From positions 1 to 56,787 of the forward strand of contig JAJQHS010000017.1 in the NCBI GenBank assembly GCA_021199635.1: a stretch of DNA of 56,787 nucleotides, in the 5' to 3' direction. Below are positions 13,171 to 32,894 of the stretch, in pieces (the first letter of the stretch is position 1; each line of letters starts with the position of its first letter). The notes below the pieces were generated by a model, which did not search any database, was not told the DNA's origin, and saw only the letters and a program-made list of their open reading frames with translations. The DNA is from Bacillota bacterium. GTDB lineage: Bacteria > Bacillota > Clostridia > Oscillospirales > Oscillospiraceae. A program made the translations under genes and the position numbers.

Positions 13171-14406
13171 TCAAAGCGTGTACTGCTTCCTGGCGATGGC
13201 AACAGCAACGGAAAGGTCGGGCGTACAGTAGGGGATCAGCATGGATTGCAGGGCGTGGTAAATATCCGGCTTCCCCGGCCACACGGTGTCCATCAGCTGA
13301 TTGTTCTGGTCCAGCTGGTGGAACCAGTTGCCGCAGGTGTGATCCCGCACGGTGCTGTCCAGGTACACCAGGAAATCCCGGTACAGTCCGGCATACTGCT
13401 TCTTCCCGGTCACCCGGTAGAGGACCGCCGAAGAGTTGATGCCCTCGGCCAGCGTCCACTGCATCCGGTCATGTACCACGGGCTTGCCGTTCCAGTCCGT
13501 GGTGTATACGATTCCGGGCGCGCCGTCAGCGTTCCAACCGTCCCCTACTGCCCGGCAGAACAGGCTCTCCGCTGCGTCCACATAGGGCTTCCACTTCTCC
13601 GCCTGGCCGGGATAGGTGGACAGCGCCCACTGGGTGATCAGCCGCGCCCATTCGATGCCGTGGCCGGGCGTTGCGCCGTAGGGCTTGAAACGGTCGTCCG
13701 GCTGGTCATGGTTGCATTCCAGGTCCGGCTGCCAATCCTTGGTATAATGTTCCGGAATGCGCCAGCCGTTATCCTTCGCCCAGCCGATCACATGGTCGAT
13801 GATGCGGCCGGCGCGGGCACGATAGGTGCTGTCGCCGGTGACATCCGCCACAGCCAGGAAGGCTTCCACGGTGTGCATATTGGCGTTGATCCCCCGGTAG
13901 TCGTCCAGCTGGGTGAAGGTAGTGTCCCAGGTGTCCCGGGAAAGGCCCTCCTCCTCGCTCCAATAGCGCTGGTCAAACAGCTCCAGCGCCTCATGCAGCA
14001 GCTTCTCCGCCTGGGGATGCCCGGCCAGCGTAGCGGAGGCGGCTGCCAGGATGACAAAGGCGTGGGCGTAGCACAGCTTTCCGGGCAGGGGAGAGCCGTC
14101 CGGGTTCAGGCTGGTGTACCAGCCGCCGTTGGTAGTATCCCGCAGCTGACCCAGGATGCCTTTCAGCCCGGCGTCGATCAGCTCGTCGCTGCCCGGGAAG
14201 CCCAGGAATTTCCCAATGCAGTAGCTATGCACCATCCGGCAGGTTTCGTAATTATCCAGGGTCTTCTCGGGCCAGGGGGAACCATCGCCCTTCAGATAAT
14301 AGGCGCTGCCGCCGGGGGAGGGGAAATGCACGGCAAAGCGCAGCAGTTCCTCCGCCAGTTCGGATACAAATGCTTTGTTCTCAGGTGTGTCGATGGTATA
14401 CTTCAT
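13171..14406 (-). CDS. N-acylglucosamine 2-epimerase (AGE) family aldose-ketose isomerase, YihS-like
   Basis: DTWDTTFTQLDDYRGINANMHTVEAFLAVADVTGD, RFKPYGATPGHGIEWARL, DIYHALQSMLIPY resemble the YihS/AGE barrel. Confidence 0.82.
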   Translation of the reverse strand: MKYTIDTPENKAFVSELAEELLRFAVHFPSPGGSAYYLKGDGSPWPEKTLDNYETCRMVHSYCIGKFLGFPGSDELIDAGLKGILGQLRDTTNGGWYTSLNPDGSPLPGKLCYAHAFVILAAASATLAGHPQAEKLLHEALELFDQRYWSEEEGLSRDTWDTTFTQLDDYRGINANMHTVEAFLAVADVTGDSTYRARAGRIIDHVIGWAKDNGWRIPEHYTKDWQPDLECNHDQPDDRFKPYGATPGHGIEWARLITQWALSTYPGQAEKWKPYVDAAESLFCRAVGDGWNADGAPGIVYTTDWNGKPVVHDRMQWTLAEGINSSAVLYRVTGKKQYAGLYRDFLVYLDSTVRDHTCGNWFHQLDQNNQLMDTVWPGKPDIYHALQSMLIPYCTPDLSVAVAIARKQYTL

Positions 14407-14446
14407 GAATGTTTCCACTCCTCGAATAGAATTTTTCAATCGCAGA

Positions 14447-15322
14447 TTATTCGCCGATGGGATTGCGCAGGGTGCCCAGTTTTTCAATGGTGCAGGTCAC
14501 CTCGTCCCCGGGTTTCAGGAAGACCTGGGGATCTCTGCCCATGCACACGCCGGAGGGCGTGCCGGTGGCCAGGATCGTGCCGGACTGCAGGGTCAGCCCT
14601 TGGGAGAACTGGCTCAGCGCCTGGGCGATTCCGGTGCGCATATAGCGGGTATTGGAGTGCTGCCGCAGCTCGCCATTGACGCAGCAGGAAATGTCCAGCG
14701 CCACCGGCCAGCCGATTTCGTCGGCGGTGACGATGCATGGGCCGAATGCGGTGTGCTTATCCAGGCTCTTGCCCCGGTACCACTGCTTGTGAGCGGTCTG
14801 CAGGTTCCGGGCACTGAAATCGTTGAATACGGTGTAGCCAAAAATGGCGTCAGGGATGGCCTCCTCCGGGCAGTCCTTAATGGTTTTGCCCAGGATGACA
14901 GCCAGCTCCACCTCATAATCCAGGGAATCCACCAGCCCGGTATAGGCAGGAACGATCTCGTCCGGCCCGACGGCCTGGCTGACCCGCTTGGAGAAATAGA
15001 TGGGGATCTCCGGCTCATTGGCGGTGAAGGCCTCCTTGGAGAAGCGGGTTGCCTCCTCGGCGTGCTCATTATAATTGATGCCCAGGCACAGGATGTCCTG
15101 CTTGGGGCAGGGGATGGGCGCGAGGATCCGGTAATCCTCCAGGGGCGCGGCCTCCGGCGGCGTTTGCAACGCTGCAAACTGCTGGGGCTGGATGGTGTCG
15201 ATCAGCGCGTTCATGTCGGGGAAGGAAAAGCCGTAGTCAGAGATTGCGTACAGCGCGCCGTCCAGGGCGTGGGAAACTGCCAGGGTTGGCTTGCCGTGCA
15301 GGGATACGGTGTACAGGTACAT
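14447..15322 (-). CDS. Fumarylacetoacetate hydrolase (FAH) family protein
   Basis: LGINYNEHAEEA, DYEVELAVILGKTI, GYTVFNDFSARNLQ, GPCIVTADEIGWP. Confidence 0.9.
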   Translation of the reverse strand: MYLYTVSLHGKPTLAVSHALDGALYAISDYGFSFPDMNALIDTIQPQQFAALQTPPEAAPLEDYRILAPIPCPKQDILCLGINYNEHAEEATRFSKEAFTANEPEIPIYFSKRVSQAVGPDEIVPAYTGLVDSLDYEVELAVILGKTIKDCPEEAIPDAIFGYTVFNDFSARNLQTAHKQWYRGKSLDKHTAFGPCIVTADEIGWPVALDISCCVNGELRQHSNTRYMRTGIAQALSQFSQGLTLQSGTILATGTPSGVCMGRDPQVFLKPGDEVTCTIEKLGTLRNPIGE

Positions 15323-15335
15323 GTGGGTTGCCTCC

Positions 15336-16238
15336 TTAATCAAATTCCAGATGCTGCATCCGGTGCTGCTTCCGGTAGATCGAGGGGGATGTGCCGGTAT
15401 GCTTCCGGAATACCCGGTTAAACTGGGAGAAGCTGTTGAAGCCGCATGGCGCGGACACCTCGGTGATAGGCATTTGCGTATCCACCAGAAGCGCCTGCAC
15501 GTTCCGGACGCGGGTCATCTGGATATAATCCGTAACGGTAAAGCCGGTTACGGTTTTGAACTGATGGGACAGGTAGCTGCTGCTGATGCCGAAATGCTTC
15601 GACAGGGAATCCAGGGAGATATCCTCCGGGTAATGGGCGTGGATATAGCTGGCCACAGAATAAATTTTCTCCTCGATCGCGGACATCTGGGATTCGTTGG
15701 AGAATAGATTTTCGTCCTGCTTCAGGAAAATCAGGGTCAGGAACTCGATAAACTTCTGATGGATGATCAGATCCCTCAGCGGGTCCGTTTTCGGCGCGAG
15801 CAAATAGATTTCATTGAGCTTGCTGCAAAGCTTTTCCTGCATTTGGGCGTCGAATCGGAAAATCGGCACATCCCTGTGGTAAACATTCAGCAGCTGCTCG
15901 TATTCGTTGGACAGACCCGGTATGGTTTTGGGGATGTTGAACTGGATGATCAGCCGCTTGCAGGATTCCCCGGGGGGATATTTGGATTTGTGCAGCAAAT
16001 TCGGCGGGATGCACACCACGTCAAAGGTCTGGAGCTCGTAGGGAACGCCCGCAATGAATATGGTTGTCCTGGGGCACAGCGGCATGCAGATCTCATAGAA
16101 GGGGTGCAGGTGCTGGAACTGCATATTGATGTCCGCGCTGCGGGAGTCATAGTCAAAGAAGTAGTAGATCGGGTCGCCCTCGTCATTGACGTGGATGTAG
16201 TATTTGTCCTCATACAGTGCCAGGTTTTGGATCAACAT
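15336..16238 (-). CDS. AraC family transcriptional regulator (cupin plus HTH_18)
   Basis: HYPEDISLDSLSKHFGISSSYLSHQFKTVTGFTVTDYIQMTRV...CGFNSFSQFNRVFRKHTGTSPSIYRKQ. Confidence 0.92.
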   Translation of the reverse strand: MLIQNLALYEDKYYIHVNDEGDPIYYFFDYDSRSADINMQFQHLHPFYEICMPLCPRTTIFIAGVPYELQTFDVVCIPPNLLHKSKYPPGESCKRLIIQFNIPKTIPGLSNEYEQLLNVYHRDVPIFRFDAQMQEKLCSKLNEIYLLAPKTDPLRDLIIHQKFIEFLTLIFLKQDENLFSNESQMSAIEEKIYSVASYIHAHYPEDISLDSLSKHFGISSSYLSHQFKTVTGFTVTDYIQMTRVRNVQALLVDTQMPITEVSAPCGFNSFSQFNRVFRKHTGTSPSIYRKQHRMQHLEFD

Positions 16239-16239
16239 T

Positions 16240-17568
16240 TTAAGGCTCCTGAATTTCCAGTCCGGTGCAGTCCGTCAGCGCATAGGGCGACGCGATCTGG
16301 GGCGCGAGGGCACTGTCCGCCTGGAAGCGGCAGCTTTGGAAATCCGCACCGGATACATTATGGGCATAAACGTAGTGCAGGCCTTGCTCCGTGTAGTCAT
16401 AGCCGTAAGCCGGGCGCAGGTCGTGGTGGCCCTTCTCGTGCTCAGTGATGGCGCGCAGGGAGACTGACACATGGTCAAAGGTGATCCCGCTGATGGCGCC
16501 GGGCACATTGCCATAGAGCAGGATGCCGTTCTCACCGTCACACTGGATGCCGGTGAAGCTGACATTTCGCACCTTGCCCACGGCGGTGTCCGCCTTGCGG
16601 GGCAGGACGGTGATGGCGATGGGCTCAGACTGCCCCCAGAATACCTCCTTTTTAAACAGGTGCGTTTGGATGGCGATGTTGTGGAAGGCGACATTTTCAA
16701 TATTGCCCTTGTCCCGCAGCTGCAGGGAGATGCCCCGGTTGGCGCGGGTGACCACGCAGTTTTCCACCACGATGTTGCGGAAATCCGCCTCGCTCTCGCT
16801 GCCGAATTTGAACGCGGAGCTGGTGGTGCAGATGGTGCAGTTGGTTACGGTGATGTTCTCGCATGGGCCATACTGCATGGCGGCGGCGGTGTTCTTGAAA
16901 ACAATGCCGTCGTCGGCGCATTCGATATGGCAGTTGGAAATGCGCACATTCTGGCAGTGGTCAGGGTCGATGCCGTCGCAGTTGGCCATACGCAGATTGT
17001 TCAGGATGCGGATGCCGTCGATCAGCACGTCCCGGCAGCCCACCAGATGCACCGTCCAGAAGGCGCTGCGCGCCAGGGTGACCTGAGTGATGGTCAGGTG
17101 GGTCACATTTTCCAGGAACAGCATGGGAGCGCGGGGGTAGAACCGCCCCTCAATGTGCCAGGGGGTCACGGTGCCGTAGAAGATTTCCTCGTTGCCGTCG
17201 ATTTTGCCGTAGCCGGTGATAGCCACATTTTCGCAGTCCTTGCCGTACAGGAAGCACAGCGGCGGCGCGCCGTCATACTCGCAGTTGATATAGGAGGGGA
17301 GGAAGCTGTCCTCCGGGCGGGAGAAGCTGCTGCCGGAGGGGACATAGTCGGCGATCTCGTCGCTGCCCTTCAGCACCGCACCCATTTCCAGGTGGAATTC
17401 CAGATTGGAGCAGAGCGCCAGCGCGCCGCTGCGGTACACCTTCCCACCGGGCAGGACCACTTTGCCGCCGCCGTCCTGGCGGCAGGCGTCGATGGCAGCT
17501 TGTATGGCGAGGGTGTCATTGGTGACGCCGTCGCCCACCGCGCCGTAGTCAATAATATTGTATTGCAT
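16240..17568 (-). CDS. Glycoside hydrolase family 28 (polygalacturonase-like), full-length copy
   Basis: MQYNIIDYGAVGDGVTNDTLAIQAAIDAC; NCDGIDPDHCQNVRISNCHIECADDGIVFK (GH28 beta-helix active-site region). Confidence 0.9.
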   Translation of the reverse strand: MQYNIIDYGAVGDGVTNDTLAIQAAIDACRQDGGGKVVLPGGKVYRSGALALCSNLEFHLEMGAVLKGSDEIADYVPSGSSFSRPEDSFLPSYINCEYDGAPPLCFLYGKDCENVAITGYGKIDGNEEIFYGTVTPWHIEGRFYPRAPMLFLENVTHLTITQVTLARSAFWTVHLVGCRDVLIDGIRILNNLRMANCDGIDPDHCQNVRISNCHIECADDGIVFKNTAAAMQYGPCENITVTNCTICTTSSAFKFGSESEADFRNIVVENCVVTRANRGISLQLRDKGNIENVAFHNIAIQTHLFKKEVFWGQSEPIAITVLPRKADTAVGKVRNVSFTGIQCDGENGILLYGNVPGAISGITFDHVSVSLRAITEHEKGHHDLRPAYGYDYTEQGLHYVYAHNVSGADFQSCRFQADSALAPQIASPYALTDCTGLEIQEP

Positions 17569-17599
17569 AGGTTAAACCTGCCTTTCTGAATCTTACAAA

Positions 17600-17628
17600 A
17601 GTGTATCACAGATTTGCAGATTATGCAA
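17600..17628 (-). promoter_or_regulatory. GH28-arm promoter (copy 1) overlapped by the ATGCAAT-N5-ATTGCAT palindrome
   Basis: Minus strand TTGCAT-17 bp-TACACT; palindrome at 17623-17641. Confidence 0.55.
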
Positions 17629-17760
17629 TAGGACATTGCATTTTTTATACCTGAAATTGACAGTTCTCGCTTTTAGGTGTCAAAAAATTGACCCGAATTT
17701 TGCGCAAAATGCACAAAACTTTTGGCCACAAAAATTTAAAAAAGCAAAAATTGCAATATT

Positions 17761-17815
17761 TAATTTGCAATTTAGCAAATTATGCGTAGCATATCTGCGG
17801 GAAATGCGGTATAGT
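17761..17815 (+). promoter_or_regulatory. SBP-arm promoter (copy 1) with upstream palindrome
   Basis: TAATTTGC-AATTTA-GCAAATTA at 17761-17782; -10 TATAGT at 17810-17815 with a weak -35 (TAGCAT). Confidence 0.5.
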
Positions 17816-17878
17816 TTACTTACCAGGACGCACAAAAAACCCTGCGAAACACATTAAAAATTTAGGAGGAATGCAAAA

Positions 17879-18257
17879 ATGAAAAAGATCATTGCTCTGC
17901 TTCTGGCAGTTTTCATGCTCATGAGCATGGCTGCCTGCAGCAGCAACACCGATCCGACCGAAACCAGCGGCACCAGTGCAAACACTGAAGCCACCGATGC
18001 CGGTACGGAAGCGACGGATGCGGTCGAGATTTCCGGCTACACCGAGGCTCCCTATATCACCGAGTTGGGTATCTATGGGGACGTGACCGACAGACTTCCT
18101 GTGGAAGAGGACATCATGGTCGAAGATGCTGACTACCTGGAGATCGGCACCTACGGCGGCGAGCTGAAGACTTCCACCTCCGTCAGCCCCTGGACTACTG
18201 GTAAGATCATTGAAGAGGGCCTGTTCCGCTTCACATCCGAGGGCATTGTGGAGCCCA
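17879..18257 (+). pseudogene. Truncated copy of the ABC solute-binding lipoprotein gene (first ~126 codons)
   Basis: MKKIIALLLAVFMLMSMAACSSN...GIVEP matches the start of 19266-21260; then runs into antisense GH28 sequence. Confidence 0.93.
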
Positions 18258-19641
18258 TACTGCATGGCGGCGGCGGTGTTCTTGAAAACAATGCCGTCGT
18301 CGGCGCATTCGATATGGCAGTTGGAAATGCGCACATTCTGGCAGTGGTCAGGGTCGATGCCGTCGCAGTTGGCCATACGCAGATTGTTCAGGATGCGGAT
18401 GCCGTCGATCAGCACGTCCCGGCAGCCCACCAGATGCACCGTCCAGAAGGCGCTGCGCGCCAGGGTGACCTGAGTGATGGTCAGGTGGGTCACATTTTCC
18501 AGGAACAGCATGGGAGCGCGGGGGTAGAACCGCCCCTCAATGTGCCAGGGGGTCACGGTGCCGTAGAAGATTTCCTCGTTGCCGTCGATTTTGCCGTAGC
18601 CGGTGATAGCCACATTTTCGCAGTCCTTGCCGTACAGGAAGCACAGCGGCGGCGCGCCGTCATACTCGCAGTTGATATAGGAGGGGAGGAAGCTGTCCTC
18701 CGGGCGGGAGAAGCTGCTGCCGGAGGGGACATAGTCGGCGATCTCGTCGCTGCCCTTCAGCACCGCACCCATTTCCAGGTGGAATTCCAGATTGGAGCAG
18801 AGCGCCAGCGCGCCGCTGCGGTACACCTTCCCACCGGGCAGGACCACTTTGCCGCCGCCGTCCTGGCGGCAGGCGTCGATGGCAGCTTGTATGGCGAGGG
18901 TGTCATTGGTGACGCCGTCGCCCACCGCGCCGTAGTCAATAATATTGTATTGCATAGGTTAAACCTGCCTTTCTGAATCTTACAAAAGTGTATCACAGAT
19001 TTGCAGATTATGCAATAGGACATTGCATTTTTTATACCTGAAATTGACAGTTCTCGCTTTTAGGTGTCAAAAAATTGACCCGAATTTTGCGCAAAATGCA
19101 CAAAACTTTTGGCCACAAAAATTTAAAAAAGCAAAAATTGCAATATTTAATTTGCAATTTAGCAAATTATGCGTAGCATATCTGCGGGAAATGCGGTATA
19201 GTTTACTTACCAGGACGCACAAAAAACCCTGCGAAACACATTAAAAATTTAGGAGGAATGCAAAAATGAAAAAGATCATTGCTCTGCTTCTGGCAGTTTT
19301 CATGCTCATGAGCATGGCTGCCTGCAGCAGCAACACCGATCCGACCGAAACCAGCGGCACCAGTGCAAACACTGAAGCCACCGATGCCGGTACGGAAGCG
19401 ACGGATGCGGTCGAGATTTCCGGCTACACCGAGGCTCCCTATATCACCGAGTTGGGTATCTATGGGGACGTGACCGACAGACTTCCTGTGGAAGAGGACA
19501 TCATGGTCGAAGATGCTGACTACCTGGAGATCGGCACCTACGGCGGCGAGCTGAAGACTTCCACCTCCGTCAGCCCCTGGACTACTGGTAAGATCATTGA
19601 AGAGGGCCTGTTCCGCTTCACATCCGAGGGCATTGTGGAGC
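18255..19641. repeat. Direct tandem duplication, unit 2 (1387 bp)
   Basis: Same sequence as 16868-18254. Confidence 0.95.
18258..18955 (-). pseudogene. Truncated GH28 copy (N-terminal ~233 codons)
   Basis: MQYNIIDYGAVGDG...FKNTAAAMQYG matches 16240-17568, then enters antisense SBP sequence. Confidence 0.93.
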
Positions 19642-21260
19642 CCAATGTTGCCAAGGGCTACGATGTCAACGATGACGCCACCGTTTTCACCATCTATCTC
19701 CGCGAGGGGATGAAGTGGTCCGACGGCGTGGACTTCACCGCTGAGGACTGCGTCTGGTTCTATAACACCATCCTGCTGAACAACGTGGATACCAAGGGCG
19801 TGCGTGACTGTAACACCAGCTCTGACGGCACCTATGCGGTCGTGGAGAAGGTTGACGACTACACCTTCACCGTGACCTTCAGCGAGCCTAAGTACTCCTT
19901 CATCGAGGATTTGGAGGTCGAGCTGAAGTGGTACTATGCCCCCAAGCACATCTTCGAGGACTATGCAAATTATGTCATCGAGTACAACAACGCGACTGAC
20001 GACACCGCTAAGGCCGAGGCCGAATCCAAGGCTCTGGCCGAGGCTGAGGCTATCTGCGGCGTGAAGTTTGCTGACGTTGCCTCTTCCGGTAAGGAAATGC
20101 TGTACTACTTCTGGAACTACTCCGGCATTCCCACCCTGAACTCCTATGTGCTGTCCACTGAGTCTGGCAAGAATGATGTCAGCGGTGACTACTACGAGTA
20201 TGTCCGTAATCCTTACTACTGGAGGGTCGATGCGGCCGGCCAGCAGCTGCCTTACATTGACAAGATCGTCTACACCACCATCCAGAACACCGACCAGTCC
20301 CTGCTGCTCCTGCTGGACGGCACTGTAGACTATCAGATCGTTTCCATGGATGCCATCGCTACCATCCGGACGGAAGCCAACGTGGATATCAACATCTATG
20401 AGTGGTCCGGAAGCTCCTGGGGCGATGTGGGCACCCAGATCATGTGGAACCTGAGCATTGCCGATGAGCATCTGAACGCGCTGTTCAACAACTCTGCTTT
20501 CCGTCAGGCAATGAGCATCTGCGTGAACCGTGAAGAGTTCGCCTCCATCTACTCCGAGGGCTGGCTGTCCGGCGGGCAGGCGACCCCGTCCGAAGGCATG
20601 CTGGGCTACAGCGAGGAATGGGCCACCAAGTGGACCGAGTATGACCCCGATTACGCCAAGGAGCTGCTGGAAAGCTGCGGCCTGGTGATGGGCAGCGACG
20701 GCTACTATGACTTCGAGGATGGCACCGACTTCGTGCTGAACATCGTCTCCGTGGCCGACAGCGGCGCAGCCGATACCTATGGTATTCTAAAGCCCTACTA
20801 CGACGCTGTGGGCATCAAGACCACCTTCCGCGACTACGACCGGAGCAACATCGATAACATGATGCTGGCCAACGAGATCGAGTGCACCCTGTACCCGGTT
20901 ACCGGCATCGGCGATGTTTCCGTCATCCTGAAGCCCAACTCCGTGGTTCCCGGCACCGCCACCAACGTGGTCTGGTACGGCAACCTGACCGCTGACACCG
21001 CTACCGGCGACCTGCTGGAGCTGATCAACCTGAAGGCACAGCTGGACGTGACCTCTGACACGGACGAGCGCACCGAGATCGCCCTGAAGATGCTGGCGCT
21101 GCACGAGGAAAATATGTGGGTCATCTCCTATGTGGAGGCCAGCCCCACCTATTTCGCAGTGAACGCACGGATTCACAACTTCCCTGAGGAAGGCGTATTT
21201 TCCGACATCTACCGTGATACCGGTCTGGCGCACTGCTGGTGCTGGTACATCGAGGAGTAA
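19266..21260 (+). CDS. ABC transporter substrate-binding lipoprotein, family 5 (Opp/Dpp type)
   Basis: Lipobox SMAACSS; VAKGYDVNDDATVFTIYLREGMKWSDGVDFTAEDCVWFYN; NSAFRQAMSICVNREE. Confidence 0.92.
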   Translation: MKKIIALLLAVFMLMSMAACSSNTDPTETSGTSANTEATDAGTEATDAVEISGYTEAPYITELGIYGDVTDRLPVEEDIMVEDADYLEIGTYGGELKTSTSVSPWTTGKIIEEGLFRFTSEGIVEPNVAKGYDVNDDATVFTIYLREGMKWSDGVDFTAEDCVWFYNTILLNNVDTKGVRDCNTSSDGTYAVVEKVDDYTFTVTFSEPKYSFIEDLEVELKWYYAPKHIFEDYANYVIEYNNATDDTAKAEAESKALAEAEAICGVKFADVASSGKEMLYYFWNYSGIPTLNSYVLSTESGKNDVSGDYYEYVRNPYYWRVDAAGQQLPYIDKIVYTTIQNTDQSLLLLLDGTVDYQIVSMDAIATIRTEANVDINIYEWSGSSWGDVGTQIMWNLSIADEHLNALFNNSAFRQAMSICVNREEFASIYSEGWLSGGQATPSEGMLGYSEEWATKWTEYDPDYAKELLESCGLVMGSDGYYDFEDGTDFVLNIVSVADSGAADTYGILKPYYDAVGIKTTFRDYDRSNIDNMMLANEIECTLYPVTGIGDVSVILKPNSVVPGTATNVVWYGNLTADTATGDLLELINLKAQLDVTSDTDERTEIALKMLALHEENMWVISYVEASPTYFAVNARIHNFPEEGVFSDIYRDTGLAHCWCWYIEE

Positions 21261-21304
21261 CGGCTGCAACCAGAACGGAGAACCGTAATTTATAAGCTGT
21301 AAAG

Positions 21305-21349
21305 ATGCGGGGAGTGAAATCTTTGTGTCCAAGGATTTCCTCCCCGCAT
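21305..21349 (+). promoter_or_regulatory. Long intercistronic stem-loop between SBP and permease genes
   Basis: atgcggggagtgaaatctttg-tgtc-caaggatttcctccccgcat near-perfect stem. Confidence 0.7.
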
Positions 21350-21390
21350 TGTTTGCTGAATCTGATTTTGGAAAGGGTGCAAAACGCCAA

Positions 21391-22386
21391 ATGAAAAAAT
21401 ATATTGGCAAACGATTGCTTCTCTTCATCCCGACGATCTTGATCATATCCTTTGTGATATTCTTCATTATTCAGCTTCCGCCCGGCGATTACGTCACGTC
21501 CTATGTTGCAGCGCGTATCGCAGAAGGTGAAACCTTCACGGAGGCTGATATCGCCTATCTGCGCCAGAGCTTTGGATTGGACGATCCTTGGTACGTGCAG
21601 TATTTCAACTGGATGAAAGATATTATTACGGAGGGAGACTTCGGCTATTCATTTGAATACGGCCGTGACGTGTGGGATGTCATTATGGACCGGCTGTGGC
21701 TGACGCTGGCTGTCTCCTTTACGATCTTTGTGTTCCAGTACGGTGTTTCGCTGCCGATTGGCATTTACTGCGCCAATCACCAGTATTCCGCCGGCGACTA
21801 TATCTGGTCGTTCATCGGTTTCCTTGGCACGGCAACGCCAAACTTCCTATTGGCAATTCTAGTAATGTACTGGGTGTATAGCGCCACGGGAAGTATGTAC
21901 CTGGGGCTATTCAGTACGGAAATGATGCAGAACGGCATGCGCTGGGAGTATGTTCCGGAATTCCTCGGGCGCTGCCTGATCCCGCTGTTCGTGATCGGCA
22001 CATCCGGTACCTGCGGCATTATCCGTACCGTCCGCGCCCAGATGCTGGATGAGCAGACCCAGCAGTACACTCTGACCGCCCGCGCAAAGGGCTGCAGCGA
22101 GAAAACCATTACTTATAAGTATTGCCTCCGCTCCGCATTGAACCCTGTGGTCTCCGGAATGGCCCATTCCCTTAGCAGTATCTTCTCCGGTTCGACGGTT
22201 TCGGCAATTGTTATGAATCTTCAGATTCAGGGCCCTGTTCTGCTGGCCGCGCTGAAATCGCAGGATATGTATCTTGCAGGAACGATCGTTATGGTTCAGG
22301 CCGTGCTTGTGGTCATCGGCACACTTCTGTCCGATATTGCCCTGGCCTGGCTGGATCCGCGCATTCGTTTCTCGGAAAGGGGCTGA
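21391..22386 (+). CDS. ABC transporter permease (DppB/OppB-like)
   Basis: MKKYIGKRLLLFIPTILIISFVIFFIIQLPPGDY; YTLTARAKGCSEKTITYKYCLRSALNPV EAA-type loop. Confidence 0.92.
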   Translation: MKKYIGKRLLLFIPTILIISFVIFFIIQLPPGDYVTSYVAARIAEGETFTEADIAYLRQSFGLDDPWYVQYFNWMKDIITEGDFGYSFEYGRDVWDVIMDRLWLTLAVSFTIFVFQYGVSLPIGIYCANHQYSAGDYIWSFIGFLGTATPNFLLAILVMYWVYSATGSMYLGLFSTEMMQNGMRWEYVPEFLGRCLIPLFVIGTSGTCGIIRTVRAQMLDEQTQQYTLTARAKGCSEKTITYKYCLRSALNPVVSGMAHSLSSIFSGSTVSAIVMNLQIQGPVLLAALKSQDMYLAGTIVMVQAVLVVIGTLLSDIALAWLDPRIRFSERG

Positions 22387-22390
22387 GCAT

Positions 22391-23527
22391 ATGGTTCTGA
22401 ATAAAAAGAAAAACAAGGAAAAAGACGAGTCCTATTACCTTGCTTCCCAATGGCAGCTGATGTGGCGCAAGCTGAAAAAGCATAAGCTGGCCAGAATCAG
22501 CTTCGTTGTTCTGCTGATCCTGTATTTAGGCGCGTTATTTGCCGACTTTATTGCCCCATATGGCCTGGAGGATTTCTCCTCCATGTATCAGAACGCCAGC
22601 CCCACCCATGTCTACTGGACGGATGAGGACGGCAGCCTGAGCGCTCCCTACGTGTATAAGCTGCAAAGGTACAACAACAAGGAAACATGGACAGTGGAAA
22701 TCACGGAGGACACCAGCGAGAAATACTATCTGAAGTTCTTCGTTTCCGGCACGGAGTATAGTGTGCTGGGCCTGTTCACCTGCGACCTGCACCTGTACGG
22801 CCTGGTGAACGAGGCAGGCGAGGTGACCACGGATGCCCGTATCTACCTGTTCGGCGCGGACGGCACCGGGCGGGACATCTTCTCCCGGATCTGGCTGGGC
22901 GCCCGGGTGTCGCTGACCATTCCTCTGGTTTCCGCTGCGCTGAGCTTTATTCTGGGTATTATCCTTGGCGGTATTTCCGGCTACTTCGGCGGATTTATTG
23001 ACAATGTGATCCAGAGAATCATCGAAGTCCTGTCCGCCATCCCGACTATCCCCCTGTGGCTGGCACTTTCCGCGGCCATCCCGGCGGATATCTCCGTTAC
23101 TGCCATGTACCTGTATATAACGATCATTCTATCCTTCATTGGATGGACGGGTCTTGCCCGGGTGGTGCGCGGTAAGTTTATCTCCCTGCGTAAAGAGGAC
23201 TATGTCATGGCTGCCAGGCTGGCCGGTGTGAGCAACTTCAAGATCATCACCAAGCACATGGTCCCCGGATTCATGAGCTATCTGATCGTCAACCTGACGC
23301 TGGGTATCCCCGGCTCCATCCTTGGCGAAACCTCCATGAGCTACCTGGGCCTGGGCATGAAATCCCCCGCGACCTCCTGGGGCGTTCTGCTGAAGGAAAC
23401 GCAGGACCTGGTTTCTGTCGCCTCCTACCCGTGGAGGATGATCCCGCTGTTCTTCGTGGTCATCACCGTGCTGGCCTTCAATTTCCTGGGTGACGGTATG
23501 CGCGATGCAGCCGATCCTTACAAGTAA
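22391..23527 (+). CDS. ABC transporter permease (DppC/OppC-like) with extended extracytoplasmic insert
   Basis: LFGADGTGRDIFSRIWLGARVSLTIPLV, DYVMAARLAGVSNFKIITKHMVPG. Confidence 0.92.
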   Translation: MVLNKKKNKEKDESYYLASQWQLMWRKLKKHKLARISFVVLLILYLGALFADFIAPYGLEDFSSMYQNASPTHVYWTDEDGSLSAPYVYKLQRYNNKETWTVEITEDTSEKYYLKFFVSGTEYSVLGLFTCDLHLYGLVNEAGEVTTDARIYLFGADGTGRDIFSRIWLGARVSLTIPLVSAALSFILGIILGGISGYFGGFIDNVIQRIIEVLSAIPTIPLWLALSAAIPADISVTAMYLYITIILSFIGWTGLARVVRGKFISLRKEDYVMAARLAGVSNFKIITKHMVPGFMSYLIVNLTLGIPGSILGETSMSYLGLGMKSPATSWGVLLKETQDLVSVASYPWRMIPLFFVVITVLAFNFLGDGMRDAADPYK

Positions 23528-23548
23528 GGTCAGAAAGGAGTGCGAATT

Positions 23549-24622
23549 ATGGAAAATGATCAGAAAAACACGGCTACCCCTGAAACTACGCAGGACGACA
23601 CCATTATCGAAGTCAAGGACCTGAAAATCAACATCAAGGTGGACGAAGGTACGCTGACTGCCGTTCGGGGTGTGAACTTTGAGATCAAAAAGGGCGAGAC
23701 CCTTGGCCTGGTGGGCGAATCCGGCTGCGGCAAGAGCCTGACCAGCAAAGCAATTCTGGGCATCAATGATAAGAAATGCTCCGCCAGCGGTGAAATTATC
23801 TTTGATTCCGACAATATGGGCAAGGTGAACCTGCTTTCCCTGAATCCGAAAGGCAAGGAGATTCGCTCCGTCCGCGGCAAGCAGATTTCCATGATCTTCC
23901 AGGAGCCAATGGTGGCGTTCTCGCCCATGTATACCATCGGCAACCAGATTACCGAGGCCACCCTGCTGCACATCACCAAGGACAAGGTGAAGGCCAAGGA
24001 AATTTCCCTGGACGTTATGAAGAAGGTGGGCATCGCCAACGCGGAGAAGCGTTACGATCAGTATCCCCACGAGTTCTCTGGCGGCATGCTCCAGCGTGCG
24101 CTGATCGCTATGGCGCTGGTGTGCAACCCGAAGCTGCTGATCGCTGACGAGCCTACCACCGCATTGGACGTGACCATCCAGGCGCAGATCCTGGAGCTGA
24201 TGAAGAGCCTGCAAAAGGACTTCGGCATGTCCATCCTGTTCATTACCCACGACCTGGGCACTGTGGCCAGGATGTGTGACCGCGTCGCGGTTATGTACCT
24301 GGGGCGCATTGTGGAATCTGCTCCCGCTACCGAGCTGTACAAGAACCCGCAGCACCCGTATACCCAGGGCCTGCTGGGCTCCGTGCATAAGATCGGCACC
24401 AAGGCGCAGGAGCGGCTGTTCTCCATCGAGGGCACGGTGCCTCTGGCGCTGAACCTGCCGGCCGGCTGCGGCTTCTATGAGCGGTGCCACCAGCGGATCG
24501 ACGGCGTGTGCAATGTTTACGATCCCACCCTGATTACTACCGGGCCGGATCACAAGGTTGCCTGCTTCGCCTGCACAGGATGCCCCAACGCCAAGAAAGA
24601 GGAGGAAACCGCAAATGGCTGA
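23549..24622 (+). CDS. ABC transporter ATP-binding protein (DppD/OppD-like)
   Basis: [14 protein letters not shown] Walker [16 protein letters not shown] signature, [14 protein letters not shown] Walker B. Confidence 0.94.
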
Positions 24623-25616
24623 GAACAATCAGATTCTGGATGTAAAGAATATCCATATGCGCTTTAACTCCAAGGGCGTCGTTGTAAAGGCGGTCACCGA
24701 CGTCAGCTTTACCGTGGATGCGGGTGAGACCATCGGTATCGTCGGCGAATCCGGCTGCGGCAAGACTACGCTGGGCCGCTGCATCGTCCGCGCTTATGAG
24801 CCGTCGGAAGGAAGCGTGATGTACACCACCAAGGAAGGTGATGTGATCGATTTCCTGAAAATTGACAAGAAAACCATGCAGAAGTACCGCAGCGAGATCC
24901 AGATGATTTTCCAGGATCCCTATTCCTCGCTGGACCCCCGTATGACGGTACTGGACATCATCAAGGAGCCGCTGAAGGCCAATTTCCCCAAAATGCCCAA
25001 GGAGGAAATGGAGAAAAAGGTGATGGACATCGCTGCTAAGGTCGGCCTGAACACGGCCTATCTGAAGCGGTACCCCCACGCATTCTCCGGCGGCCAGCGG
25101 CAGCGGATCGGCATCGCCCGGGCGCTGGTTCTGAATCCCAGAATCATTGTCTGTGACGAAGCGGTCTCCGCGCTGGATGTGTCCATCCAGGCGCAGGTGA
25201 TCAATCTTCTGCATGATCTGCAGAAGGAGTTTGGCCTGACTTACCTGTTCATTAGCCATGACCTCTCTGTTGTGGAGTATATCTCCGACAAGGTCGGCGT
25301 TATGTACCTGGGCAAGCTGGTGGAATACGCGCCCACCAAAGCGCTGTTCACCAAGCCTATGCACCCGTACACCGAGAGCTTGCTCTCCGCCGTCCCGGTC
25401 GCCGATCCCACCGTCCAGATCGATCGTATCCCGCTGGAGGGTGAAATCCCCAACCCGGCCAACCCGCCCACGGGCTGCTACTTCCACACCCGCTGCCGCT
25501 ATTGCACAGAGAAGTGCAAGGAGGTCGCGCCGGAGTATGTGGAGATGGAGCCGGACCACTACGTTGCCTGCCACCGGGCAGAGGAACTGAAACTGAGAGG
25601 ATTCGACTATGAATAA
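24615..25616 (+). CDS. ABC transporter ATP-binding protein (DppF/OppF-like)
   Basis: [43 protein letters not shown]. Confidence 0.94.
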
Positions 25617-26139
25617 AAAGCTGATCATCTTCACCGACAGCGGCGATACCATTGTGGACGAGAGTACCCAGGTTTATGATGATCGCGGCATCGTGCTCCG
25701 GGCGGATTTTATTCCCGGCGCGGACGTGGTTCTGAAGCAGCTCCATGACGAAGGCTTCACCATCGCGCTGGTGGCTGACGGGGAATGGGAGTCCTTCCAG
25801 AACACTTACCGTGAAAATGGGCTTGGTTATTGCTTTGACGCGTGGGTCGTTTCCGAGGTGGTAGGTCAGCAAAAGCCGGCGCCAATCATGTTCGAAACAG
25901 CTTACAAAAAGCTAAACTTGACAGAAGCGGATAAATGCCGTATTGTAATGATCGGCAATAATCTCAGAAAGGATATTGCCGGAGCCAACCGTCAGGGGTT
26001 GACCTCTGTATGGATGGACTGGTCGCCCAGATATTTCCATACGGCGCAGGAGGCGGATTGGACGCCGGACTACACGGTGAAAACGCCGGCGGAGCTGATC
26101 CCGCTTCTGCATTCGCTTGAGGACAATCTGAATAAATAG
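25609..26139 (+). CDS. HAD superfamily hydrolase
   Basis: IIFTDSGDTIVDEST N-terminal motif, QKPAPIMFETAYKKL, MIGNNLRKDIAGANRQGLTSVWMDW. Confidence 0.82.
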   Translation: MNKKLIIFTDSGDTIVDESTQVYDDRGIVLRADFIPGADVVLKQLHDEGFTIALVADGEWESFQNTYRENGLGYCFDAWVVSEVVGQQKPAPIMFETAYKKLNLTEADKCRIVMIGNNLRKDIAGANRQGLTSVWMDWSPRYFHTAQEADWTPDYTVKTPAELIPLLHSLEDNLNK

Positions 26140-26148
26140 AGGTAGTAT

Positions 26149-27249
26149 ATGGTAGAAGTAACGCAGCGGACAGTGATCGAAGAAAAGCTGGCCAAACTGA
26201 TGGATTTCTTTTGCCCGATTCTCTATGAGGATGACGAAACGTTCCTGGAGAACATGAAGGATAAGAACCTGGTTGGGGATGATATTCGCCGGTACCAGCA
26301 TTGGGAATGGACTCAGGGCGTGGGACTGTATGGGCTTTGGAAGCTCTTTACGATCTCCAAGGAGCAGAAATATCTGGATATCCTCACCGAGTTCTTTGAC
26401 CGCCAGATCGCGGTCGGGTTCCCGGCGCTGAATGTGAACACCATCGCCCCGTTCCTGACCATGTCGTTCGTTGGGGAATATCTGCAATCCGAGCGCTACC
26501 TGGCTCCCTGCCGGGAGAGCGCCAAGTGGATCATGACGAACTTCCCCAGGACGGAGGAGGGCGGCTTCCAGCACATGACCTCCGACGCCAGGAACGACCA
26601 GGAGCTTTGGGATGATACGCTCTTTATGACTGTTCTGTTCCTTGCCAATATGGGCAGGATCGAAGGCAATCAGGCGTATACCCAGGAGGCACTGCACCAG
26701 TTCCTGCTCCACGCGAAATATCTTGCGGACCCGGAAACCGGACTGTGGTACCACGGCTGGACGTTCCATGGCCGTCATAATTTCGCGGAAGCCTTCTGGG
26801 GACGGGGCAATTGCTGGATCACCATTGCCATTCCGGAATTTCTGCAAATGACGGCATGTGAACCTGCCGCGAAGCAAACGCTCACCGATCTTCTGCTCAG
26901 GCAGGTCGAAGGCCTGGTAAAATATCAGGATCCTTCCGGTATGTGGCACACCCTGATCGACGACCCCACCTCCTATGTGGAGTCCAGTGCCACATGCGGC
27001 TTTGCCTACGGTATTTTGCGGGCGGTACATACCGGGCTGCTTGACAAGGAATACGAGGAGGCTGCATGGAAGGCGCTTCCGCCGATCCTCGGCTACATTG
27101 ACGACAGTGGCGTCCTGCACCAGGTTTCCTATGGGACACCCATGGGCAGAGAGAGCAAGGATTTTTATAAGAATATCGGACTCAAATGTATGCCGTACGG
27201 TCAGGCATTGGCGATGCTATTCCTGATTGAGTGCTTACTGGATCAGTAA
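26149..27249 (+). CDS. Glycoside hydrolase family 105/88 (unsaturated rhamnogalacturonyl hydrolase-like)
   Basis: ELWDDTLFMTVLFLANMG, WYHGWTFHGRHNFAEAFWGRGNCWI typical of GH105. Confidence 0.86.
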   Translation: MVEVTQRTVIEEKLAKLMDFFCPILYEDDETFLENMKDKNLVGDDIRRYQHWEWTQGVGLYGLWKLFTISKEQKYLDILTEFFDRQIAVGFPALNVNTIAPFLTMSFVGEYLQSERYLAPCRESAKWIMTNFPRTEEGGFQHMTSDARNDQELWDDTLFMTVLFLANMGRIEGNQAYTQEALHQFLLHAKYLADPETGLWYHGWTFHGRHNFAEAFWGRGNCWITIAIPEFLQMTACEPAAKQTLTDLLLRQVEGLVKYQDPSGMWHTLIDDPTSYVESSATCGFAYGILRAVHTGLLDKEYEEAAWKALPPILGYIDDSGVLHQVSYGTPMGRESKDFYKNIGLKCMPYGQALAMLFLIECLLDQ

Positions 27250-27254
27250 CTGCT

Positions 27255-27292
27255 AAACGGAGAATGGGGCTGTTTAGCCTCATTCTTCGTTT
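27255..27292 (+). terminator. Intercistronic hairpin/attenuator between GH105 and GH38 genes
   Basis: aaacggagaatggggct-gttt-agcctcattcttcgttt stem. Confidence 0.6.
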
Positions 27293-27313
27293 GTGCGTTC
27301 ACAGAAAGGGTAG

Positions 27314-30286
27314 ATGTCTATGAATCTTGGCAGACAGTGGTCGGACCGGCTGCGAATCTGGGCCGAGCAATTCCCCAAATTTTACTATCGGATGGCAGAT
27401 GCGCTGCCGGTTTCCTATTTCACAACTATGGAGCACCTGACCTATGCACAGGCGCTTCAGCATAGCTATACGCCCATCCAGCCGGGTGCGCAGTGGGGGC
27501 AGAAATGGGAGTATGGCTGGTTCCGCACCTCGCTGACGGTACCGGAAGCGCTTGCAGGCAAACGGCTGGTGTTCACCCTTCAAACGGCGGAAGAAATGCT
27601 GGTCTGGGTCAACGGGTCCGAAGCCGGCTCCATCGATAAGATGCATAAATATATCACCCTTTCCCGGCAGGCAGTGGCTGGCGATGTCTATGAGATCGTG
27701 GCGGAATGCTATGCCGGCCATGGCGTGCGCAACGAAGGCGCCGGACCGGTGGCCTGGGGCGCGTGCCCTGTCCCGGAGCCGCCTGCGTGCCAGGTGTGTG
27801 TGGGCCGCTCCAGCTACGGCGAATGGAATGAACCGCTATTCCAGGCGGCAATGGATTATCTGGCCCTTTACACTTTGGTGCAGGCGCTTCCGGACAAGAG
27901 CCTGCGTGCCATGAAGATCGTGGAGGGGCTGAAGCAGTTCACTTACATCGCGGATTTTGAGCTGCCGGAGCCTGCCATGACCCAAAGCGTTGTTAAGGCC
28001 GATCAATTGCTCAAGCCGCTTATGGAATGCAAAAATGGTTCCACTGCCCCGGAATTTACCGTTTTTGGCCAGTCACACATCGATCTGGCGTGGCTGTGGC
28101 CGGTGGAGGAAACCATCCGAAAATCCGCCAGGACCTATTCCAACCAGCTGGCGCTGATGGACGAGTACGACGATTACCATTTTCTGCTGTGCGAGCCGCC
28201 GCTGCTGGAATGGCTGAAGACGGATTACCCCAATGTTTTCGCAAGGGTGCGGGAGAAGACGGCACAGGGCCGCTTTTACCCGGAGGGGGGAATGTGGGTG
28301 GAATCGGACACCAATCTTCCCTCCGGCGAGAGCCTGATCCGCCAGTTCGCATATGGCAAGCGCTGGTTCCGGAAGGAGCTGGGCACCGAGGTTTACATGG
28401 CCTGGATGCCGGACACCTTCGGATTCTCCGCGGCGCTGCCGCAGATCATGAAAAAGTGCCAGATCCGCTATTTCGCCACCCAAAAGCTGACCCGGCAGGA
28501 CCCGGAGGCGGACCCGTTCCCCTACAACATCTTTTGGTGGGAGGGGATGGACGGCAGCCGGATCCTGTCCCACTCCTTCAAGAAGAGCAACGCCGTCCTC
28601 ACGCCCGGGGACCTGGTTTCCCGATGGGAGAATGACCGTGTTCAGTCCGAAAAAATCGACACGTTCCTGTTCCCATATGGCTTTGGCGACGGGGGCGGAG
28701 GGCCGATCCGGGAAATGGTGGAAATGCAGCGGCGCTGCGCCGATCTGGAGGGCGCACCCCGATGCAGAGTCGAAAATCCGGTCCGCTTCTTTGAGCGGCA
28801 GACCGATGTGAAGAATGTATACTGCGGCGAGCTGTACCTGGCGTGGCACCGGGGAACGTTGACCTCCCAGGCCAGAACCAAGCGGGGGATCCGTAAGGCG
28901 GAAATTTGCCTGAAGCAGGTGGAATACGCCATGTCGCTGCTGCGAATTTCCGGCAGAGAGATTCCGGCGGAGGACCAGGCGGAGCTGGAGCGACTGTGGA
29001 AGCTGCTGCTGTTCAACCAGTTCCACGATGTTGCCCCCGGCACCGCCATCGCCCGGGTGTACGAGCGGGCGGAAAGGGAGCTATCAGAGGTCGTGGAGAA
29101 GGGGGAGGCGCTGATTCACAAGATGCTCGGGCAGCCATCCGCCCATGGCATGCTGTACAATCCGCTGAGCTGGCCCCGTACGTATCACGGCGTTCACCTT
29201 CCTGCCCAGGGCTGCGCTCCGGCAGTGGTCGATGCGGAGACTTCCGGCGCGTCCGTCCGGCAGTATGGCGGGATGTACGAGCTGCGCAACGCGCACCTGA
29301 TCTGCCGTATTGACAGCCAGGGTCAGCTGTGCAGCATGAAAATACCCGGCTCCGACCGGGAATATATGGCAGGCGAAGGCAACCGTTTCCTGATGTACAA
29401 GGATGTGAACGTGGCCTATGATGCCTGGGAAATCGGCAGCATGTACGAAAATCTGCCGGTCCCGCTTACGGAGCCTGCGCGGCTGGAGCCGTTCCGGGAC
29501 GATACTGGCGCTGGGCTGATCGTGGAGCGCATGCTGCATGACTCCCGCCTGACTCAGAAGATTTTGCTTGGCCATGACGCCTGCCGCCTGGATTTTATCA
29601 CTTCCCTGGATTTCCGGGAGAAGCACAAGCTGCTGAAGGTAGCGTTTCCCGCAAATATTTACACCAAGGAGGCCATCCACGAGATCCAGTTCGGCTATGT
29701 CAAGCGTCCGACCCATCGCTCCAGGCAGGCGCAGAAAGATCAGTACGAGGTATGTAACCACCGCTACTCCGCCCTGTCGGATGGCGCTGCGGGACTGGCG
29801 CTGCTGAACGACTGCAAGTACGGGATCAGCGTATCGGATAACGAGATGCGGCTGACGCTGCTGAAATCCCCGATGATGCCGGATGCGGCTGCGGACCAGG
29901 GGATTCAGAGATTTACCTATTCCGTTTATCCCTTTACCGGCGCGTTCCAGGACAGCGGTACACTCCGCCAGGCGGCGGAGCTGAATGAGCCGCCCATTTT
30001 TGGTGCGCAGATGGACCTGCTTTCCGAGCCGATTTTCCTGCCGGAGAATCCAAACATCGTGGTGGAAACGATCAAACCGGCGGATACTGTGGGAAACGCC
30101 CTGCTCGTCCGCGCCTACGAGGCCATGGGCATGGCCACCTCCGCCCGCTTCACGGTGGCGAAGCAGATTCGCGGCATCGCGGAAACGGATATGCTGGAGG
30201 AGCATCCGGTGACGCTGCCCTGTGATGGGGCACTGCACCTGGAATTCGGCGCGTTTGAAATCAAGACGCTCCTGCTGTATCTGTAG
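27314..30286 (+). CDS. Alpha-mannosidase, glycoside hydrolase family 38
   Basis: FGQSHIDLAWLWPVEET, YMAWMPDTFGFSAALPQIMKK, FNQFHDVAPGTAI. Confidence 0.92.
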   Translation: MSMNLGRQWSDRLRIWAEQFPKFYYRMADALPVSYFTTMEHLTYAQALQHSYTPIQPGAQWGQKWEYGWFRTSLTVPEALAGKRLVFTLQTAEEMLVWVNGSEAGSIDKMHKYITLSRQAVAGDVYEIVAECYAGHGVRNEGAGPVAWGACPVPEPPACQVCVGRSSYGEWNEPLFQAAMDYLALYTLVQALPDKSLRAMKIVEGLKQFTYIADFELPEPAMTQSVVKADQLLKPLMECKNGSTAPEFTVFGQSHIDLAWLWPVEETIRKSARTYSNQLALMDEYDDYHFLLCEPPLLEWLKTDYPNVFARVREKTAQGRFYPEGGMWVESDTNLPSGESLIRQFAYGKRWFRKELGTEVYMAWMPDTFGFSAALPQIMKKCQIRYFATQKLTRQDPEADPFPYNIFWWEGMDGSRILSHSFKKSNAVLTPGDLVSRWENDRVQSEKIDTFLFPYGFGDGGGGPIREMVEMQRRCADLEGAPRCRVENPVRFFERQTDVKNVYCGELYLAWHRGTLTSQARTKRGIRKAEICLKQVEYAMSLLRISGREIPAEDQAELERLWKLLLFNQFHDVAPGTAIARVYERAERELSEVVEKGEALIHKMLGQPSAHGMLYNPLSWPRTYHGVHLPAQGCAPAVVDAETSGASVRQYGGMYELRNAHLICRIDSQGQLCSMKIPGSDREYMAGEGNRFLMYKDVNVAYDAWEIGSMYENLPVPLTEPARLEPFRDDTGAGLIVERMLHDSRLTQKILLGHDACRLDFITSLDFREKHKLLKVAFPANIYTKEAIHEIQFGYVKRPTHRSRQAQKDQYEVCNHRYSALSDGAAGLALLNDCKYGISVSDNEMRLTLLKSPMMPDAAADQGIQRFTYSVYPFTGAFQDSGTLRQAAELNEPPIFGAQMDLLSEPIFLPENPNIVVETIKPADTVGNALLVRAYEAMGMATSARFTVAKQIRGIAETDMLEEHPVTLPCDGALHLEFGAFEIKTLLLYL

Positions 30287-30303
30287 GCAAAGGCGGTGGC
30301 GGA

Positions 30304-31266
30304 ATGTACAGAATCGGCATAGACCTGGGCGGCACCAACATTGCCGCCGGGCTGGTGAATGAAAACCGGCAAATCGTAGACAAATGCAGCGTGAAAACCA
30401 ACGCGCCCCGGCCGGTAGAGGCGCTGGTGCAGGACATGGTGCGCCTGGTGCGGCTGCTGATGGCCCGCAGCGCCCTGGAGAAGCGGGATATTGCCGCCGT
30501 CGGCGTTGGCGTACCCTGCACGGCCAATCCTACCAACGGGCATATGGAGGACGCGAATAATCTGGGCATTGCGGACGCTCCGTTCCGAACGGTGCTGGAG
30601 GAGGCACTGGGGCTCCCGGTGTATTTTGAAAACGACGCCAACGCCGCGGCCTGGGGGGAATATCAGATCGGCGATTACCCGGAGGATTCTTTCGCTATGG
30701 TCACGATCGGCACGGGCATTGGCGGCGCGCTGATCCTGGGAGGTAAACTCTGGCCGGGGATCAACGGTGCGGCGGCGGAGTTCGGGCACATGACGCTGAA
30801 ATTTGACGGCGTCCCCTGCAACTGCGGCAGGCGGGGCTGCTTTGAGGCCTACGCCTCCGCCAATGCACTCATCCGCCAGGCGAAAACCCGCATGGCAGAA
30901 AGTAAGGGCACCCTCCTATGGCAGCTTTGCGGCGGCGTGGAGGAACGGGTCGAGGCGAAGACTGTATTTGCAGCCGCGCAGTCCGGCGACACGGACAGCC
31001 GGGCCCTGCTGGATCACTATACGGATTATCTATCCGAAGGGATCGCAAACATCATCAACATTTTCCAGCCAGCTATAGTGTGCATCGGAGGCGGTATCAG
31101 CCAGGCTGGGGAATTGCTGCTTTCCCCCGTGCGGGAGAAAACAGCCCATAAAATCTATTCAAAAAACGCAAACCACAACACGCAAATTGTATTGGCACAG
31201 CTGACCAACGACGCGGGCATTCTGGGCGCCGCGCTGTTGGGATGCGACAGGAGGAACATATTATGA
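30304..31266 (+). CDS. ROK family sugar kinase
   Basis: MYRIGIDLGGTNIAAGLVNE; VPCNCGRRGCFEAYAS zinc motif; ENDANAAAWGE. Confidence 0.9.
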   Translation: MYRIGIDLGGTNIAAGLVNENRQIVDKCSVKTNAPRPVEALVQDMVRLVRLLMARSALEKRDIAAVGVGVPCTANPTNGHMEDANNLGIADAPFRTVLEEALGLPVYFENDANAAAWGEYQIGDYPEDSFAMVTIGTGIGGALILGGKLWPGINGAAAEFGHMTLKFDGVPCNCGRRGCFEAYASANALIRQAKTRMAESKGTLLWQLCGGVEERVEAKTVFAAAQSGDTDSRALLDHYTDYLSEGIANIINIFQPAIVCIGGGISQAGELLLSPVREKTAHKIYSKNANHNTQIVLAQLTNDAGILGAALLGCDRRNIL

Positions 31267-32894
31267 AAGCACATTATGAACAGATGATTCTTGACACATG
31301 CTTTCGCGCCCGCCAGGCGCTGAAAACGCAGAACCTGGAACAGGGCAGCCCGTATTATGGCGCCTTTGTCATGCCGGACGGCGTTTATATGGCAAAGCAC
31401 ACGCTTTACTGCGTCGCGGATATGGCCGCGGTTTACTGCAATCCGGATGCGGACTGCTATCACGATGAAACTCTACTGACCAGCATGCTGCTGGGGCTGG
31501 ACTATGCCTCCGGGGAGCAGCATGAAAACGGGCTGTTTGATTATATTACCTGCAATTTCTTTTCCGCGCCGGATACCGCGTTCTGCATTGGCATCCTGCT
31601 GCCTGCGCTGCAATATCTGAAGGGCCTGGCAACGCGCACCCCCGGAGAAACGCGCCTGATGGAGAAAATGGATAAGATCGTCCACCTGGGCGGCAGGGGA
31701 CTGCTGGAGGGCGGCTTCCATACGCCCAACCACCGCTGGGCCATTGCGGGTATGCTGGCCACCTGCGGAAAAATGTACCAGGAACCGGAGCTGACGCAGG
31801 CGGCTTTCGCCTATCTCAAAGAGGGCATCGACTGCAACGCCGACGGCGAGTATTCCGAGAAATCCGCCGGAAACTACAACGGCGTGAACAACAAGGCCAT
31901 GCTCTGGCTGTCGGAGGCTCTGGATGACCCCAGCTACGAGCAGAACGTGATCCGCAATCTGCGGATGATGCTGACCTATTACGAACCGGACGACAGTATT
32001 TTCACCGCCAATTCCACCCGGTTCGACAAGGACCGTCTGGTCTATCCCGGTGATTATTACTGGAGCTATTTGTACCTGGGCGCCCGGTACAACATTCCGG
32101 ATTTTGTGGCGACTGCAAATTACATCTTCCACGTTACGCAGGAAAAGAGGATCCTCTCACCCAATTACCTGATCGAGTATATGCTCCACCCAGAGTTGAT
32201 CGGCTTTGAATCCCCGGAATGCGGCACGCCCACCCATTACCATGCTCTGTATGCCGACTCCGGTATTGCCCGTGTACGGCGGGGGAACTACACCTACACG
32301 GTCATGCGGGAAAAGTCCAACTTCCTGTACGTCCACAACGGCTCCATCAAGCTGGCGATGAAGATCGGCGGCAGCTTCTGCGAGCATCGCGCGTTCCAGG
32401 CGGAGACGCTGGAGGAGCGCGACGGCGCATTCCACCTGCACCAGACCATGCACGGCTGGTACTATCTGCCCTTCGAGGAAAAGCCTGCCACCTCTGACTG
32501 GTGGAAGATGGACAACGCTTCCCGAAAGAAGAAGCTTGGGCCGGATATGGACATTGACGTCTTCATCCGGGAAGCGGAGCAGGGCATCGACGTGGAGATC
32601 GTTACCTCCGGCGTGGAAGGCGCCCCCTGGCGGGTGGAGCTGGCGTTCAACGGTATTGACCGGATCTCCAACAGCCATATGACCATGCCGGTGCATGGGG
32701 ATGAGGTGCTGGTGCTGAAGGATGATGATTTCACCGTGTCCAATCCCATCTCCCGGCTCAGCGTCGGGCCGGCCTTTGGCGCGCACCATTTCACCGAAGG
32801 CAAAGAGGACAGCGAGGCCAAAACGCCCGGCGCCGCCACTGTTTACCTGACCGATTACACCCCGTTCCACCATGTGATTTCCATCCGACCCTGA
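31263..32894 (+). CDS. Uncharacterised protein, likely alpha-barrel plus beta-sandwich carbohydrate-active enzyme
   Basis: 543-aa intact ORF overlapping the ROK stop; helix-repeat N-half (GNYNGVNNKAMLWLSEALDD), beta-rich C-half; no confident family recognised. Confidence 0.8.
   Translation: MKAHYEQMILDTCFRARQALKTQNLEQGSPYYGAFVMPDGVYMAKHTLYCVADMAAVYCNPDADCYHDETLLTSMLLGLDYASGEQHENGLFDYITCNFFSAPDTAFCIGILLPALQYLKGLATRTPGETRLMEKMDKIVHLGGRGLLEGGFHTPNHRWAIAGMLATCGKMYQEPELTQAAFAYLKEGIDCNADGEYSEKSAGNYNGVNNKAMLWLSEALDDPSYEQNVIRNLRMMLTYYEPDDSIFTANSTRFDKDRLVYPGDYYWSYLYLGARYNIPDFVATANYIFHVTQEKRILSPNYLIEYMLHPELIGFESPECGTPTHYHALYADSGIARVRRGNYTYTVMREKSNFLYVHNGSIKLAMKIGGSFCEHRAFQAETLEERDGAFHLHQTMHGWYYLPFEEKPATSDWWKMDNASRKKKLGPDMDIDVFIREAEQGIDVEIVTSGVEGAPWRVELAFNGIDRISNSHMTMPVHGDEVLVLKDDDFTVSNPISRLSVGPAFGAHHFTEGKEDSEAKTPGAATVYLTDYTPFHHVISIRP

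Follow-up and report, generated by a model that had tools for sequence, protein, structure and literature searches.

Perfect tandem duplication of a divergent GH28/solute-binding protein promoter hub in an Oscillospiraceae draft genome, probably written by the assembler

Introduction

In metagenome-assembled genomes, perfect tandem duplications can mimic recent adaptive events. The locus described here raises the question of whether its chromosome carries the divergent hub of a sugar locus twice, as assembled, or only once. The window, meaning the whole stretch of DNA that was analysed, was contig JAJQHS010000017.1 of assembly GCA_021199635.1 (Bacillota bacterium, Oscillospiraceae; positions 1-56,787, forward strand). 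The source genome is a draft of 1,947,221 bases in 120 contigs and is 95% complete. The initial annotation allowed that the duplication could be an intermediate of amplification or else an artefact of assembly; contig ends that overlap by 55 bp, a broken holA gene elsewhere in the same assembly and single-copy relatives favour the artefact.

Results

Gene content of the hub

The region from 13171 to 25616 encodes an acylglucosamine 2-epimerase-like protein, an FAA-hydrolase-fold protein, an AraC-family regulator and a GH28 protein, and the AraC/GH28 side diverges from an Opp/Dpp-type transporter (SBP_bac_5, two permeases and two ATPases). As judged from the predicted proteins, this suggests a locus in which pectin-derived oligosaccharides are imported by a peptide-type ABC transporter. 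The complete GH28 gene (16240-17568, minus strand) encodes a polygalacturonase- or rhamnogalacturonase-like protein of 442 aa (Pfam PF00295, 4e-19; PF12708), which matched the NCBIfam model PglB at 7e-76, below the cut-off of that model. Its neighbour, also on the minus strand, is the AraC-family regulator (15336-16238; PF12833, PF00165), which relatives also have beside GH28. On the plus strand, the complete gene for a family-5 extracellular solute-binding protein (SBP) of 664 aa spans 19266-21260 (PF00496, 2e-52).

Structure of the duplication

Comparison by exact matching revealed that 16868-18257 is identical to 18255-19644, a direct repeat of 1390 bp at an offset of 1387 with no mismatch and no N. 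The coordinates, offset, perfect identity and 3-bp overlap given in the initial annotation were all correct. A repeat of this length cannot have arisen by chance. It consists of a 1387-bp unit in head-to-tail orientation, whose copies overlap at the novel junction (18255-18257) by the 3 bp CCA. The first copy (16868-18254) contains the N-terminal part of GH28, the divergent intergenic region and approximately the first 125 codons of the SBP gene, and the second (18255-19641) matches it letter for letter. At the edges, identity ends abruptly: the left flanks read gcatggg/CCATACTG versus gtggagc/CCATACTG, and the right flanks gagCCCA/TACTG versus gagCCCA/ATGTT. The tail-to-head junction itself reads gagC/CCATACTG.

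A search of the genome found these two copies only, with a 98-bp stretch at 71% as the sole further match to the unit, and no other exact direct repeat of at least 40 bp was present in the contig. The copies are thus perfect and head to tail, with neither long repeats nor a transposon at their ends, and the previous remark that no transposase or long flanking repeat is visible held. Homologous recombination between long repeats was rejected because there are none at the duplication ends, and transposition or a mobile unit because the genome contains no further copy of the unit. An exact dispersed direct repeat was seen separately in a Lachnospiraceae MAG locus (L049, 6030-6722; 693 bp, offset 10114).

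Because the breakpoints fall inside two divergent genes, both GH28 and SBP are complete, and the unit itself holds no complete gene. The junction creates two hybrid ORFs that face each other, one of 365 aa on the plus strand (17879-18976; N-terminal part of SBP followed by antisense GH28) and one of 379 aa on the minus strand (17816-18955; N-terminal part of GH28 followed by antisense SBP). The intergenic region, the putative divergent promoter, is present as two copies of 310 bp, the first (17569-17878) adjoining the complete GH28 gene and the second (18956-19265) the complete SBP gene; no match to the sigma-70 consensus promoter was found in it. The initial annotation placed the duplication on the promoter for the whole locus. 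The unit does span the divergent intergenic region, but both full genes retain an intact upstream region, so a real duplication would not necessarily alter their regulation.

Single-copy arrangement in relatives

The initial annotation had proposed a search of related strains for the single-copy arrangement, and this arrangement was found. The closest genome of the same genus (G006), collinear with the window over 13175-31999, has a single copy of the region. No break interrupts its alignment at the left (16788-16947) or right (19562-19721) edge of the duplication, while the junction aligns only as two separate pieces. Another genome (G092) and eight loci of other genomes (L031-L037 and L071) share this divergent order and likewise contain GH28 and SBP once each, giving a single copy in all ten relatives that carry the AraC-GH28/SBP hub. 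As these relatives are single-copy, the two-copy state is, on comparison of the sequences, derived in the source assembly. A conserved duplicated hub was rejected since all ten relatives having the hub carry one copy, and an old duplication maintained by conversion since the two copies show zero divergence and the relatives are single-copy. The AraC-GH28/SBP-permease order is kept in the gut Oscillospiraceae MAGs represented by the eight loci.

A single-copy ancestral state is also what a real, recent duplication would have started from. On that explanation, illegitimate joining at CCA produced a short-junction tandem duplication that became fixed or dominant in the sampled population, and the extra unit now separates the full GH28 from the full SBP, each with its own intergenic region, with two hybrid ORFs of low value between them. 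The exact head-to-tail structure with clean edges agrees with this, as does the completeness of both genes, with no gene harmed, unlike the holA case described below; the junction k-mers, moreover, should derive from some read. We nevertheless consider a real duplication of this kind unlikely, in view of the holA case and of the overlap at the junction.

Microhomology at the junction

Among head-to-tail junctions of 150-3000 bp placed at random in this window, an overlap of at least 3 bp had a probability of 0.058 and one of at least 2 bp a probability of 0.167. The CCA overlap is therefore close to chance level and is no signature of a repair pathway. To call it the signature of a microhomology duplication, as had been done, was too strong, given that 5.8% of random junctions share as much.

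Published junctions point in the same direction. Of the duplication junctions tested in Salmonella, those with microhomology of 7 and 9 bp failed verification, whereas five of six with at least 11 bp were confirmed (Sun et al., PMC3411829), and adaptor ligation during library making was named there as a source of false chimeric junctions. Tandem duplications with short junctions in bacterial chromosomes resemble the present case in having head-to-tail copies without long repeats at their ends; the confirmed ones in that study, however, overlap by at least 11 bp, compared with 3 bp at a putative junction here, and the present unit lacks a complete gene. The chimeric library junctions that mimicked rearrangements (PMC3411829) are similar in their near-chance microhomology, small distance and lack of a flanking repeat, but differ in being single reads, whereas the present junction reached an assembled contig.

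Assembly features and k-mer content

In the source assembly, six pairs of contig ends overlap by exactly 55 bp and the N gaps are 10 or 100 long. These two features point to short reads and a fixed small k, that is, to a SPAdes-type product at k=55, and do not fit long reads; SPAdes itself we infer. One of the 100-N gaps, at 600 in contig C103 (L097, 540-720), adjoins ~60-100 bp of self-complementary sequence, which probably reflects either a scaffolding error or a contig end with a hairpin-like repeat. The gaps also bear on whether post-processing placed two contigs overlapping by 1387 bp one after the other without merging them. Such concatenation would yield a perfect repeat with a chance-level overlap at the joint, but the other gaps in the assembly are N-filled and no N is present at the junction, and we regard it as the most remote of the explanations.

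When the two-copy window was compared with a one-copy version at k=55, 51 k-mers differed, all of them spanning the junction (18204-18308), and the one-copy version had no private 55-mer. Since only these junction 55-mers distinguish the two, the extra 1387 bp adds no evidence beyond the junction itself. There are exactly two perfect copies, and the unit is longer than k. In a SPAdes benchmark (PMC6052550, Table 5), two motif copies were written whether the real count was two, three, four or five, and the true copy number is accordingly not recorded in an assembled sequence of this kind. The simple tandem-repeat loop of that study resembles the present case in its two perfect copies, a unit much longer than k, the lack of internal variation and support that lies entirely in junction k-mers; its repeats were real, either simulated or from isolates, whereas the present junction may be chimeric or a minority form.

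Based on these observations, the reading that we favour, and hold to be probable, is that the chromosome carries the hub once and that a short-read de Bruijn assembler wrote the second copy as a loop artefact. The chromosome would then have AraC-GH28 on one strand and SBP-permeases-ATPases on the other, around a single 310-bp intergenic region. A few reads with the tail-to-head junction gagC/CCATACTG would stem either from DNA ends joined while the library was prepared or from a molecule that was rare in the sampled population. Such reads would close a loop on the 1387-bp unit at k=55, and a single walk of that loop by the assembler would yield two perfect copies. Both the nature of the junction reads (chimeric or minority) and their number are inferred. 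SPAdes normally prunes weakly supported short connections. The junction therefore probably had some real read support, which counts against an artefact.

That support could have come from a junction that is real in a minority of molecules, as would arise by transient duplication, by higher-order amplification selected on a pectin-type substrate or by excision of a circle, with the assembler placing two copies in the consensus. Tandem arrays, two-copy repeats and circles all yield the same loop at k=55, and duplications are common in bacterial populations (PMC3411829). However, a single variant frequent enough to survive graph cleaning is unlikely, and amplification of a unit without a complete gene gives no extra dose of GH28 or SBP. 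This origin is considered very improbable.

A second duplication, in holA

The source genome was scanned for further perfect head-to-tail duplications, with 1.45 of its 1.95 Mb covered. One other with a long unit was found, on contig C15 (L089, 10001-10466), where a 10-N gap lies 1 kb away; its unit measures 232 bp and its overlap 2 bp. The two remaining matches had 18-bp units and were ordinary short repeats. The C15 duplication lies in holA, which encodes the delta subunit of DNA polymerase III (TIGR01128). As 232 is no multiple of three, holA is frameshifted and split into a 197-aa ORF matching model positions 1-137 and a separate, out-of-frame ORF of 263 aa matching positions 63-316. Genome searches found no second holA elsewhere in the source genome. 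Among the other genomes searched, all 39 gave a holA match, which was a single open frame of at least 344 aa in 38; the exception (G020) had a fragment of 116 aa only. A published table (PMC3290774, Table 1) lists holA among the essential genes of seven species, B. subtilis and E. coli being two of them.

With the only copy of an essential gene broken, the C15 sequence as written can hardly be what most cells of a living population carry, and its duplication very probably arose during assembly. The assembly thus contains a comparable event at a site where it could hardly be biological. The 1387-bp and 232-bp events share the same anatomy, namely perfect copies, head-to-tail order and a near-chance overlap, and on this ground a common origin is the simplest view, the class being probably artefactual in the source assembly. 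The same likeness weighs against a real duplication at the hub, which would match an event very unlikely to be a true majority genotype. Against the artefact, the holA case proves one such event wrong and says nothing certain about the other, and the 1387-bp event, with both genes complete, would be tolerable in a living cell.

No long-unit perfect head-to-tail duplication was found in 0.26 Mb of G006 or in 0.63 Mb from 45 GTDB loci of other genomes. Two such events in 1.45 Mb of the source genome, compared with none in 0.89 Mb of control sequence, are no more than a suggestive excess, as the controls cover less sequence than the test; the argument is carried by holA.

Discussion

The truncated GH28 and SBP copies at this hub are not to be counted as genes by users of the source genome. 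Cases of this type can be judged against a cheap internal control, namely a similar event in the same assembly that disrupts an essential single-copy gene. The opposite outcome, which we think improbable, is a real population-level duplication or array of the divergent promoter hub, in which GH28 and the transporter are uncoupled, each with its own regulatory copy, and convergent hybrid transcripts arise between them. If true, the assembled sequence would be a snapshot of a promoter-hub duplication in an uncultured gut bacterium.
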